In this document: positions 26,394 to 30,335 of the stretch, in pieces
How positions within the stretch are numbered: position 1 is the first letter of the stretch
Layout: the number at the start of each line of letters is the position of its first letter
Source of the DNA: Bdellovibrio sp. KM01
GTDB lineage: Bacteria; Bdellovibrionota; Bdellovibrionia; Bdellovibrionales; Bdellovibrionaceae
Reading direction: 5' to 3'
NCBI RefSeq assembly: GCF_013752535.1
Contig: NZ_CP058348.1
Span: 2,046,001 to 2,110,000 of the forward strand
DNA length: 64,000 nucleotides
Notes under the pieces: model-generated
Databases searched by the model: none
What the model saw: the letters and a program-made list of their open reading frames with translations, nothing else
What the model was told of the DNA's origin: nothing
Position numbers and translations under genes: made by a program

Positions 26394-27036
26394 ACACGCC
26401 TCTTTTACCATCCACAGTCGTCACGTCAATTACCAGGGTTGTTAACTCTGCATTCGGTGGTTTATTCAACAGGAGCCAGCGACGCAAAAACATTTTTGCA
26501 GGGACAGATACCGGAGCATAAAGATGAGTACTTGGAACTTTGATCACTTCGTTTGCGTGACGCTGGTCTGCGGCGATGCCTGTGACCGCCGCCCATCCAA
26601 TTCCTCCCAGTGCCGCTACAGAACCTAATGCAGATACAGTGGAGTTCTTACTGGTCGCAGCTAAAACACCAGCACCCATTAGCGAAGCCTGAATAATATC
26701 CTGATTTAACTTATCGACTTTTGCCTGAGCCTGCTTTGCTTCAGCCCAGTCCACTAAGTCTTGCCCCACAACGGCGCTGACTTTACTTTCAGCAGGATTT
26801 GGCAAGCGCGGGCGAATCGACTCGATGCGAACCCATTCTTCGGAGGTGTTTTCGATGGTTACTTCGATCAATTGAAAGCTGTCTCTTTTAGAGTAATCCA
26901 GATTTTCGGCACTCACATTAATACTAATAGGATTTGAATTATCATACGAATGCCCGATTGCTCCGGGATGAACGCTGGCACAGGAAACCAGTAAACTTGA
27001 TGAGAGGACTGCCAAGGTGATGATTAGATTTTTCAT
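26371..27036 (-). CDS. Lipoprotein, regulator-coupled, unknown function
   Basis: A 221-residue lipoprotein: signal peptide with lipobox LVSC (lipidated C19). Residues 40-75 look like an immunoglobulin-type beta domain, and 110-150 is a Gly/Ala-rich hydrophobic stretch that may insert in a membrane. ATG overlaps the regulator stop by one nucleotide (TAATG) behind GGAGAA. Followed with a 23-nt overlap by the GNGGD gene. Confidence 0.8.
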   Translation of the reverse strand: MKNLIITLAVLSSSLLVSCASVHPGAIGHSYDNSNPISINVSAENLDYSKRDSFQLIEVTIENTSEEWVRIESIRPRLPNPAESKVSAVVGQDLVDWAEAKQAQAKVDKLNQDIIQASLMGAGVLAATSKNSTVSALGSVAALGGIGWAAVTGIAADQRHANEVIKVPSTHLYAPVSVPAKMFLRRWLLLNKPPNAELTTLVIDVTTVDGKRGVYEIPLSR

Positions 27037-27785
27037 TATTTCTCCAAAGGGGATGTCACGGGAACAAATTGAACATTTAAACTATAAACTTCGGTACCGG
27101 CTGACTTGCCAGAAAGGTCCGAGGCATTTTCCAAGAAATCATCGATCAGCTTTTTAAAGGCATCGATCTTTTTAGGATTGATCGGCAACGACATGGATTG
27201 AATCTGGCGCAGACTGTTTTCGACCGTGTCTATTTTCTCGATAGCCAGATCCAAATTCTGTTTGTGGTATTTACGGATCGCTTCAGAGGGTATTTCCGAA
27301 TCCACATCCAATAAATCACCCACCTGCTTGAATTTGGGCTTAGTCTGCAAAATCCCCATGCGCTCCATCCTAAGCACAGCCTGGTGTGCCTCTTCCACAC
27401 TGATTCCCAAACGACGCGCAATCCAGCGCGGGTCTGCCTTGGAATCCTTGATGCGGGTCAGACTTAAGATCGCGAAGTGATACCAGTCCGAAATCACATG
27501 AAAGCGATCTTGATCTAATTTCACCCGATGAGCCTCTGGCGGATGTTTAGAGCCGTCTTTTAAAAGAGCTTGGGCGATCTCGCTTTTTTCTGTTGGTGAG
27601 AGATCCAGGCGGGAGCCCATCTTTTTCATGGTTTTTACTGTAATGGTTCGTTTCCCCGTCATCATCTGTGACAACTGTGCAGGACTGACTTCCAGATATC
27701 TGGCAAAGGCCCTGAGGGAGAAATTGGGATTTCTCTCGCGGCGCTTATCAAATTCCAGTTTTAGAAGCTCTTGTGCTGTTTGCAT
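27036..27785 (-). CDS. TIGR02147-family transcriptional regulator
   Basis: A 249-residue regulator of the type expanded in Bdellovibrio and Fibrobacter. The helix-turn-helix is at residues 15-45 (NPNFSLRAFARYLEV, SPAQLSQMMTGKRTI); the C-terminal domain contains FHVISDWYHFAILSLTRI and DPRWIARRLGIS, both typical of the family. ATG 27785 is chosen over the upstream TTG at 27806 because the N-terminus matches the duplicated copy at 30237. It leads an operon with two exported proteins. Three TGAAACA boxes sit beyond its -35. Confidence 0.88.
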   Translation of the reverse strand: MQTAQELLKLEFDKRRERNPNFSLRAFARYLEVSPAQLSQMMTGKRTITVKTMKKMGSRLDLSPTEKSEIAQALLKDGSKHPPEAHRVKLDQDRFHVISDWYHFAILSLTRIKDSKADPRWIARRLGISVEEAHQAVLRMERMGILQTKPKFKQVGDLLDVDSEIPSEAIRKYHKQNLDLAIEKIDTVENSLRQIQSMSLPINPKKIDAFKKLIDDFLENASDLSGKSAGTEVYSLNVQFVPVTSPLEK

Positions 27786-27792
27786 GAAGTGA

Positions 27793-27857
27793 GTTGTATA
27801 AAGCACTTAAACCACGGTCAATAGCCTTTTTGAAACAGTGTTTCAGCTTCTGAAACA
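27793..27857 (-). promoter_or_regulatory. Promoter and triple TGAAACA operator of the TIGR02147 operon
   Basis: On the minus strand TTGACC (27816-27821) is followed 17 bp later by TACAAC (27793-27798; TATACA overlaps it). Nine bp upstream of the -35 lie three alternating half-sites: TGAAACA 27831-27837, TGTTTCA 27839-27845 and TGAAACA 27851-27857, forming two nested inverted repeats. They fit a dimeric regulator's operator, possibly for autoregulation. Binding is inference. Confidence 0.55.
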
Positions 27858-27997
27858 CCCGAGGAACAAGAAACCTTTACACCTGGACCGCCCCGGGACT
27901 GCAACATTTGCTGGAGGCTGCAGAGTACTGTTTTCAACAAACTTACATTTGTCTAATATCGATTTACAAATCACAGATTTGGCGTTATCTCCACCCA

Positions 27998-28648
27998 ATG
28001 GAAAATGCTGTAGAGTCCTTTAAAGCCAATGCCCTTAAGCTTTCTGAAGTGCTTAGGGAGCGTGGTATTGATACACCGGCACTTTCACCTTCCAGTCCAT
28101 TTGTACGCGTAAGTCATGAAATCCAAACCAAAGCTATTGAGCGAACTCTGAACCAAATAAAACAGATGGAAATCGTTCCCGTTCGCCTGGAAGAGTTTGA
28201 AAAGCTGCGCATGATTTGCCGTTTTCATGGCGTGAAACCTGTTTCCACCGAGGTCTATGAACGCTTAACGAACGACATGGCTTGGGAAATATTGGATTTC
28301 GGTTTAAACCAGCTCTATAGAAATGAAACGATCTTTAAGCTCGGCAATTATTCTATCGAAGACTATGAGTCTTACACGCCGGCGGAGCTCTTTAGCCGTC
28401 CGATGTCTGTTTTAAAACCTTTGGTGGAAAAAACTTTGGAAGTTAAAGCAAGCACGAAGGTTGTGGATCTAAGCAGCATCCCCTCTTATGTGATCGAGGA
28501 AACTCAGACTCGTCTGAAATCACAATTTCGTATTACCCATTCATTCGCTTGCGCGCTGAAGTCGATTTCGACGAATGAAAACACGATGTTTGTGTTTGCA
28601 TCCTATATCGAACCCATCGACCCCAGCCGCCGCGTTGCAATTATGTAG
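27998..28648 (+). CDS. Hypothetical cytoplasmic protein, unknown function
   Basis: ATG 27998 gives 216 residues; an upstream in-frame ATG at 27908 encodes an odd Cys/Tyr-rich start and is less likely. No signal or membrane segment, no ribosome site. Composition is that of a normal folded helical/beta protein. I recognise no family. It diverges from the TIGR02147 operon, whose operator region lies between them, and converges with the oxidase gene, with 2 bp between stops. Confidence 0.62.
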   Translation: MENAVESFKANALKLSEVLRERGIDTPALSPSSPFVRVSHEIQTKAIERTLNQIKQMEIVPVRLEEFEKLRMICRFHGVKPVSTEVYERLTNDMAWEILDFGLNQLYRNETIFKLGNYSIEDYESYTPAELFSRPMSVLKPLVEKTLEVKASTKVVDLSSIPSYVIEETQTRLKSQFRITHSFACALKSISTNENTMFVFASYIEPIDPSRRVAIM

Positions 28649-28650
28649 AA

Positions 28651-29280
28651 TTAGGCCGAAGCAACCAGCTTCTGATAGCTGCATTCATTTACTGTTCTTA
28701 AGATATTAAAATACATTTCGCAGGCCTGATAGAAATTCTCGGTGGCACCAGCTTCGTTTTCTGGAGGGAATGATTTGATAGTCTTTACGGCTTTTTCAAC
28801 GTGGTCAACGTCTTCAAAAGCATGGATCTTTACAAAGAGCGCTGCTTTTTCACCGTGGGCTTTTTTGACCGTTTCATACATTCTTGCGCCAACCTCGACT
28901 GAGAATGCCTCAAGCATCAGGATTTGTCCCAACAAGTGATACGGATGTTCAAACATGACTTTGAAGTATTGAGATTGATAGAATGCACTTGTCACACCAA
29001 ATGGTGGGTATTGGGTGATTTTTTTACCCATGGCTTCCATGTCTTTGACGGCTACCGTGTGATGTCCTTTTTCTTCACCGATGTGAGCAAGCATTCTGCG
29101 GCCCACAGGATTATCGATTGGCAGTCTGCCTGCGCTTAAAGACATTAAACGTACCGAGTGCGAAACAAAGTGATACGTTTGCGCAAGCCAGTTTGCGTAA
29201 ACTTCGGGGTTAGTGAAATCCATGGTGTTGAAATATTCTACGACAGCTCGAAACTCTTTTGATTTATGCAACTCGTTCAC
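28651..29280 (-). CDS. Heme-oxygenase-like diiron oxidase (HDO) family protein
   Basis: A 209-residue all-helical protein of the TenA/heme-oxygenase fold. Metal-ligand pattern fits the HDO group: E69/E70 and H73/H74 in HIGEEKGHH, E124 in LMLEAFSVE, and H153, D157 and H160 in HAFEDVDHVEK. Characterised members (UndA, SznF, CADD type) use two irons and oxygen to modify amino acids, fatty acids or amines. Start is GTG with AAAGG upstream, and it overlaps the GNAT-like gene by 17 nt. Substrate unknown. Confidence 0.8.
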   Translation of the reverse strand: MNELHKSKEFRAVVEYFNTMDFTNPEVYANWLAQTYHFVSHSVRLMSLSAGRLPIDNPVGRRMLAHIGEEKGHHTVAVKDMEAMGKKITQYPPFGVTSAFYQSQYFKVMFEHPYHLLGQILMLEAFSVEVGARMYETVKKAHGEKAALFVKIHAFEDVDHVEKAVKTIKSFPPENEAGATENFYQACEMYFNILRTVNECSYQKLVASA

Positions 29281-29938
29281 GTCTTGCCTGACCTTTCTTA
29301 ACTAGTTCATTGGAATTAAACGTCTCTAAAACATAATTTGGAAACTTTTGACTGGTTTGAATGATCTTCGTTTTCTCGAATGTGAAAAGATCTGTGGGAA
29401 CACCGTTATGGGTCACTGTCTCCAGCGCGTCCCCGCCCCACATTTTACCTAAGGAATTCATCGAGCGGTTGTTTCTCATCATCCCCAGCATCAGATCAAA
29501 ACCCAGATGGACTTGATATAGGACTGACAAGCAACCAGTTAGAAATGCGGTGTTGATATTTCCGCCCTCGATGGTTCTGCGGTGGTCTTTGTGAACCGTA
29601 AAATAGGAATTCACCAAGGCTTGATCATTCCCTTGCGCAACGAAAGTTTCAAAATGCTTTTGCTGCCATGGTTGGAACCAGGAATCCTGGGTCTGGACAT
29701 AGCTTTTAAGGGAAACTTCGCGCATACAATCTAAGGCGACACAGGTATCCTCTTTATAAAGCGCTACGATGTAATCCTGGCGTGTGAAATCGTTGGAGGG
29801 CATGACCATAGCTTGCCCCTTGATCGTGGAAAACTCCTCGCTCCAGGTGGTTTTAAAGGTCTCGTATGCTTGCTCATAGCGATTCGTTAGTTGAGCGTCG
29901 TTGAACCGCCCGTTTAAAACGTGAAACTCATACTGCAC
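29264..29938 (-). CDS. GNAT-fold acyltransferase, N-acyl amino acid synthase-like
   Basis: GTG 29938 is chosen since AGGGAG lies 6 nt upstream (a TTG at 29962 has none); 224 residues. The central motif VNSYFTVHKDHRRTIEGGNI resembles the acetyl/acyl-CoA loop of GNAT enzymes, and the layout recalls FeeM-type N-acyl amino acid synthases and acyl-homoserine-lactone-type synthases. It would then transfer an acyl chain to an amine. Cotranscribed with a diiron oxidase-like gene. The family assignment is moderate. Confidence 0.65.
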   Translation of the reverse strand: MQYEFHVLNGRFNDAQLTNRYEQAYETFKTTWSEEFSTIKGQAMVMPSNDFTRQDYIVALYKEDTCVALDCMREVSLKSYVQTQDSWFQPWQQKHFETFVAQGNDQALVNSYFTVHKDHRRTIEGGNINTAFLTGCLSVLYQVHLGFDLMLGMMRNNRSMNSLGKMWGGDALETVTHNGVPTDLFTFEKTKIIQTSQKFPNYVLETFNSNELVKKGQARRERVA

Positions 29939-30199
29939 TAGGCGCTCCCTGTTATGCGACAAGCACAGATTAGTTTAGTAGTTTGTTATTTGTTTATAGT
30001 TATGTTGAATGCGGGTGGAAAACTGTCCTTAGAGATGGAATTGTGGTCGGCTGCAGACAAAAGGATCTAGGTCTAGATCTCATTGAGCAAAGCCGTTACA
30101 TGCGTCTGGTCGCACTGTAATTGGTATTGAAATTGGGTTCAGGTCATTATCGCGTGGTAAATAGTGGTTTGTCTATGGCAAGAAAGAAGTATAGCCCAG

Positions 30200-30335
30200 A
30201 TTGACTGTGGTTTAAGTGCTTTATAAAACTCATTTCATGCAAACAGCACAAGAGCTCCTTAAGCTGGAATTTGATAAGCGCCGCGAGAGAAATCCCAATT
30301 TCTCCTTCAGGGCCTTTGCCAGATATCTGGAAGTT
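30200..30335 (+). repeat. Inverted partial duplicate of the TIGR02147 promoter and 5' gene end
   Basis: About 136 bp here match 27687-27822 on the other strand with roughly 8 differences, covering the promoter, the ribosome-site region and the first 33 codons. The TGAAACA operator boxes are not included. Three of the differences are synonymous changes in adjacent codons, so the copy is not very recent or was under selection. The two copies flank about 2.4 kb in inverted orientation. Confidence 0.85.

Follow-up and report, generated by a model that had tools for sequence, protein, structure and literature searches.

Introduction

In CqsA/CqsS-type signaling, the gene for the synthase lies next to that for a multi-transmembrane histidine kinase, and the synthase, CqsA, is a PLP enzyme. 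Bdellovibrio-type predators alternate between attack and growth, and must time their division and exit inside the prey. Heme-oxygenase-like dimetal oxidases (HDOs) form a superfamily, most of which carries a set of three histidine and three carboxylate ligands, and those of known function serve natural-product biosynthesis (PMC13108848). An HDO domain is also part of DtpC, a desiccation-tolerance factor (PMC13232832).

Our study focused on an HDO gene and an overlapping GNAT acyltransferase gene in Bdellovibrio sp. KM01, within a window of 64,000 nucleotides (NZ_CP058348.1, positions 2,046,001 to 2,110,000). In the openly licensed papers searched, we found nothing on this pair or on GNAT–HDO units, nor any self-made small-molecule signal tied to these genes or to the accompanying gene that we call c1. 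As the best reading, our findings suggest an undescribed quorum-sensing-like family in Bdellovibrionota, with putative sensing.

Gene arrangement at the locus

The genome (G000) is one contig of 3.96 Mb, and the locus comprised the following features in window coordinates:

27036–27806, minus strand: TIGR02147/DUF4423 regulator with HTH_3, divergent from c1 (TIGR02147, 1.4e-32; PF14394, 6.3e-45)
27908–28648, plus strand: c1, third component, probable PAS-like sensor protein (clustering of neighbors, profile comparison)
28651–29280, minus strand: HDO, heme-oxygenase-like dimetal oxidase of 209 aa with a GTG start (Pfam PF14518, AlphaFold2 model, ligands)
29264–29962, minus strand: GNAT acyltransferase (AlphaFold2 model, Foldseek, VIA-align; no Pfam or NCBIfam family)

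An ORF check placed both genes of the pair where the original prediction had them, on the minus strand with a 17-nt overlap (29264–29280), and the FTVHKDHRR motif was present in the GNAT. The GNAT probably starts at GTG 29938; TTG 29962 gives the longest frame (232 aa). The c1 gene converged with the HDO gene, leaving 2 nt between them, and ATG 27998 is a likelier start for it than 27908. The TIGR02147 regulator occupied the same position in the closest relative (G016, DNA 90.8% identical), making it a possible DNA-binding partner of the unit in the window's clade; it lay at most two genes from the unit in only 3 of 129 loci and was not conserved with the unit elsewhere. Promoter and terminator scans yielded matches no more frequent than chance.

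A 135-nt inverted repeat (95%; arms 27688–27822 and 30200–30334) flanked c1, HDO and GNAT, and its left arm overlapped the TIGR02147 gene at the 5′ end. We rejected the idea that the repeats delimit a mobile or invertible unit, as the right arm was missing in G016 and the genome held two copies only; we read the repeats as a local partial duplication.

Fold and family of the two proteins

The HDO matched Pfam PF14518 (Haem_oxygenas_2) at 4.9e-12, above the cut-off, and its AlphaFold2 model, built from an alignment of 36 sequences, reached a pLDDT of 94.0. The model had the heme-oxygenase-like fold, matching 3dde (Sden_3740; Z 23.1), CADD (20.3), UndA (20.1) and also HrmI, and TenA structures matched it well too. 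The nearest solved structure of the subfamily, Sden_3740, has an annotation of unknown function, and among functionally characterized HDOs only MboA gave a significant profile match (3.6e-7). E70, H73, E124, H153, D157 and H160, spaced as ExxH...E...HxxxDxxH, were invariant in 130 of 130 relatives, as all six had been in an earlier alignment of 36, and together they make up the three-histidine/three-carboxylate set; D80 and G118 were likewise invariant. The loss of ligands in orthologues that would have spoken against the original prediction was thus absent. The prediction had offered E69 and H74 as alternative positions, and of these H74 fell outside the pattern, while E69 was nearly invariant (126/130). 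By fold and ligand set the protein would be a diiron-type oxidase, with predicted binding of a metal pair and activation of O2. Identity with the self-sacrificing pABA synthase CADD was rejected, as it scored 14.8 bits with the TIGR04305 model, whose cut-off is 200.

For the GNAT, the AlphaFold2 model (alignment of 34 sequences) had a pLDDT of 90.2. Foldseek placed the AHL synthases RpaI and EsaI, together with NcdE, SbzI and FeeM, among the top matches, and VIA-align gave Z 15.6 over 196 residues for RpaI, 15.1 over 197 residues for BjaI and 14.4 over 178 residues for FeeM (2g0b). Arylalkylamine N-acetyltransferases, over ca. 170 residues, and polyamine N-acetyltransferases came within 1 Z of RpaI. 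The protein therefore has the GNAT-type fold of AHL synthases and of FeeM, which is common to other GNATs and so unspecific, and with several of them tied within 1 Z, fold alone leaves the substrate unfixed. Structure prediction of both proteins thus returned the anticipated GNAT and HDO folds and no other.

Sequence families told less. The window protein and 33 relatives matched no Pfam or NCBIfam family over the cut-off, including the AHL synthase profile PF00765 in the Pfam scans and any FeeM family, and none of the genomes of the genus had a LuxI-type match that passed the cut-off. Searching PDB sequences with the GNAT sequence and profile returned chance matches only. A FeeM or LuxI identity by sequence profile was consequently dropped and retained as fold similarity only. 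The original description of the protein as FeeM-like was right as to kind, the AHL-synthase/FeeM kind by fold, and too specific as to name, as there was no sequence family and RpaI and BjaI fitted best. Membership in the thermostable hemolysin family was likewise rejected (hhalign E 0.14; PF12261 below cut-off in the genus).

Pairing across Bdellovibrionota

Of 369 Bdellovibrionota genomes, 135 matched the GNAT profile and 125 contained the HDO subfamily (E below 1e-40); 117 genomes held both, 18 the GNAT only, 8 the HDO only and 226 neither. Outside the window's own family the corresponding counts were 69, 14, 3 and 217. This co-occurrence, together with the Pfam match, is far beyond chance. 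In neighborhoods based on simple ORF calls, the GNAT adjoined 118 of the 130 HDO genes examined in context, a descriptive figure, as the 130 loci were picked from GNAT and HDO matches; several of the exceptions were contig end cuts. A profile scan of genome contigs with a narrower HDO alignment gave 29 loci. The adjacency and co-occurrence in relatives on which the original prediction had staked its case were therefore both borne out. In two genomes, GNAT and HDO formed a single ORF (G017, 458 aa; G217, 455 aa).

Three diverged pairs were present in G000: besides that of the window, there was one at 1.819 Mb and another at 3.331 Mb. Only 15, 29 and 12% identity (GNAT, HDO and c1, respectively) linked the unit in the window to that at 1.819 Mb, and the latter was 60, 70 and 56% identical to a unit in another genome; low identity within the genome and higher identity across genomes indicated that the units are separate lineages. 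Across 83 complete loci, GNAT, HDO and c1 distances correlated (Mantel r 0.58–0.63, shared ancestry uncontrolled), as did those of GNAT and c1 given HDO (0.45), as is expected of units inherited together.

Three further arrangements were observed. Several genomes of the window's genus (L113–L117) had a further GNAT gene; the stretch retrieved around it contained neither HDO nor c1, and no common partner was apparent. In G079 (L193:1198–2915), a subfamily HDO lay beside a type III polyketide-synthase-like gene, and no GNAT was called on that contig. Named Bdellovibrio records were among the loci related to the window pair, and on plasmid pBdHM1 of Bdellovibrio sp. HM001 (AP029175.1), XRE, GNAT, HDO and c1 genes lay together, annotated as hypothetical proteins.

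The pairing bears on whether the two proteins act in one pathway. They could instead have separate housekeeping or stress roles and be merely co-transcribed, the GNAT for example as a small-molecule acetyltransferase and the HDO as a CADD-, TenA- or DtpC-like protein. The close scores of arylalkylamine and polyamine N-acetyltransferases, the good fit of CADD and TenA structures to the HDO model, and the precedent of DtpC as an HDO-domain stress factor all lean that way. The two fusions and the phylum-wide adjacency argue for one pathway, the CADD model scored far below its cut-off, and the alternative partners of the GNAT described below were desaturases, FAD oxidases and a P450 rather than stress genes. 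We consider separate roles unlikely.

A third component and alternative candidate sensors

The original prediction saw the pair as isolated, lacking any adjacent transporter or regulator. That claim failed with respect to regulators: clustering of all neighbors revealed that a third component, c1, is conserved, and throughout the phylum the pair was accompanied by genes for predicted sensors or regulators. The c1 gene lay within four genes of 91 of the 130 HDO genes and was convergent downstream in 66, so that GNAT and HDO on one strand, followed by c1 on the other, was the commonest architecture. In G003, which we assume may be B. bacteriovorus HD100, c1, GNAT and HDO followed one another on one strand. 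Several genomes (G000, G003, G006, G009, G013, G016 and others) held up to seven copies of c1, the majority not near the pair; with that many copies, we estimate that c1 would fall within three genes of a pair by chance in ca. 1% of cases.

No Pfam family matched c1, and the Pfam PAS models reached only 0.025–0.031, with one member each. Compared by hhalign with a local PAS profile, built from PAS domains of the same genome and loci, c1 aligned over 92 columns with E 1.6e-4 (probability 50), and unrelated control profiles gave 0.027–0.67. The alignment covered the conserved C-terminal half (IEIY...QlFRN..FF..CSYSLEEL...). From these comparisons c1 is probably a PAS-like domain protein, the PAS assignment being weak.

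Two other types of regulator accompanied the pair. A small XRE-type HTH protein (ca. 98 aa, HTH_3) was encoded within two genes at 44 of 91 c1 loci and at 2 of 38 loci without c1. Histidine kinases showed the reverse distribution, being within two genes at 12 of 91 c1 loci and 30 of 38 loci without c1 (Fisher p 1e-12, with loci that are not independent). In 24 of these kinases the N-terminal region was homologous, and 22 of the 24 came from loci without c1. A simple hydropathy count suggested that this region may cross the membrane up to six or seven times. It includes invariant residues, R168 and G177 among them, and matched no Pfam family. The synthase genes were thus linked to a predicted sensor or regulator gene, as most loci had c1, XRE or a histidine kinase next to the pair.

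Outside the phylum, the gammaproteobacterium Microbulbifer taiwanensis (L271:3125–5609) carried the pair next to a divergently oriented gene whose product had PAS_3, scoring slightly under the curated cut-off, and a LuxR-type GerE domain. This regulator would combine the presumed parts of c1 and XRE in a single protein. None of 389 other genomes of the Microbulbifer order held a GNAT copy, and so this one looks like a transfer. In the draft record, the 5′ end of its GNAT frame appeared shifted.

Exchangeable oxidases

Where the GNAT occurred without the HDO, c1 or XRE was kept in most loci and another oxidase was usually close: PF00487 fatty-acid desaturases (L122, L280–L285), some labelled by a local profile only, FAD_binding_4 oxidases (L121, L276, L277) or a cytochrome P450 (L288). 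In G109, the GNAT was fused to an FAD_binding_4 oxidase (L120:6065–8377, minus strand), near a kinase of the multi-transmembrane family. Desaturases also adjoined the complete GNAT–HDO pair in some loci. The presence of desaturases and other oxidases near the GNAT suggests that the product is first acylated and then oxidized, and the retention of GNAT and sensor points to these two as the stable core.

The pair may instead make an oxidized N-acyl compound other than a signal, either a secreted specialized metabolite or a membrane lipid component, whose production c1 and XRE, or the kinase, only regulate on some other cue. HDOs of known function serve natural-product biosynthesis (PMC13108848), the desaturases, FAD oxidases and P450 resemble tailoring enzymes, and regulators commonly adjoin biosynthetic genes. 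Such a role sits less easily with a minimal unit of two enzymes in which one sensor family or another is retained when the oxidase changes, and the unit was not accompanied by any conserved transporter, carrier protein or resistance gene. We regard it as a less likely alternative.

Proposed system and its significance

The reading that we prefer, at evenly balanced confidence for the whole, is a modular system in which a GNAT acylates a small molecule, an oxidase tailors it and a sensor detects it. Support is good for the parts that form the synthase, whereas the product, its sensing and its secretion are inferred. The GNAT would take an acyl group, fatty or otherwise, from CoA or ACP and attach it to a small amine or an amino acid, and the HDO may then oxidize this molecule through a reaction such as decarboxylation, desaturation or hydroxylation. 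After putative export, the mature molecule would be sensed by the PAS-like c1, working with the small XRE-type DNA-binding protein; in other lineages, the multi-transmembrane sensor of the one histidine kinase family would bind and detect it. Exchanging the oxidase (HDO, fatty-acid desaturase, FAD-linked oxidase or P450) would yield a lineage-specific version of the signal, and a genome could hold several diverged copies of the unit. The original suggestion of an acylated, oxidized small product, possibly a signal, is kept as the best reading.

Several findings count against this synthase and sensor interpretation, namely the c1 copies away from the pair, the missing XRE neighbor at the window copy, the lack of a conserved transporter beside the unit and the almost equal fit of arylalkylamine and polyamine N-acetyltransferases to the GNAT model. 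The solo c1 copies resemble solo receptors, and may be receptor-like by this analogy. It is tentatively proposed, at slightly under even confidence, that the units represent a new class of small-molecule cell–cell signaling in predators, with a GNAT outside PF00765, an exchangeable oxidase on which the chemical identity of the signal would depend, two alternative receptor types (the PAS-like protein with XRE, or the kinase with its undescribed multi-transmembrane sensor), parallel channels within a genome and extra receptor-like copies.

These findings name specific genes and a chemistry for which to search. One synthase family with interchangeable oxidases beside it would offer a natural experiment in the evolution of signal dialects, and an HDO subfamily whose nearest structure, Sden_3740, is functionally unannotated gains a genomic context.

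Comparison with known systems

With the HDO superfamily (UndA, HrmI, BesC, MboA, CADD), the window HDO has in common the fold, PF14518 and the six ligands of the three-histidine/three-carboxylate set; it differs in forming a subfamily of its own, tied to the GNAT partner. A homologous HDO (hhalign E 3.5e-23) occurs in a T_hemolysin–AMP-binding–HDO–SDR cassette of Gamma- and Betaproteobacteria. Its first gene is annotated as thermostable hemolysin, and in several cassettes two-component genes follow; the cassette was conserved and plasmid-borne in L133, L134, L135, L138, L139 and L140, and openly licensed papers searched gave no function for it. However, the T_hemolysin protein had no detectable relation to the window GNAT (hhalign E 0.14), the AMP-binding and cassette SDR genes were absent at window-type loci, and an AMP-binding profile made from the cassettes matched in none of 60 Bdellovibrionota loci. 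The cassette is therefore treated as a parallel with a common HDO, not as membership.

FeeM N-acyl amino acid synthases have a similar fold (Z 14.4, 178 residues), whereas the window GNAT matched no FeeM sequence family and is paired with an HDO and sensor genes. The loci without c1 repeat the pairing of synthase and multi-transmembrane kinase known from CqsA/CqsS, although CqsA is unrelated to GNAT or HDO. LuxI/LuxR systems (RpaI, BjaI, EsaI, LasI) differ in that the GNAT had no PF00765 match, an oxidase is part of the unit, and the sensor would be a PAS-like protein with XRE, or a histidine kinase, rather than a LuxR protein. In common with them are the GNAT-type fold, with CoA-dependent AHL synthases as the best structural match, a synthase gene next to a sensor or regulator gene, the LuxR-type HTH of the Microbulbifer regulator, and extra receptor-like copies that recall LuxR solos.
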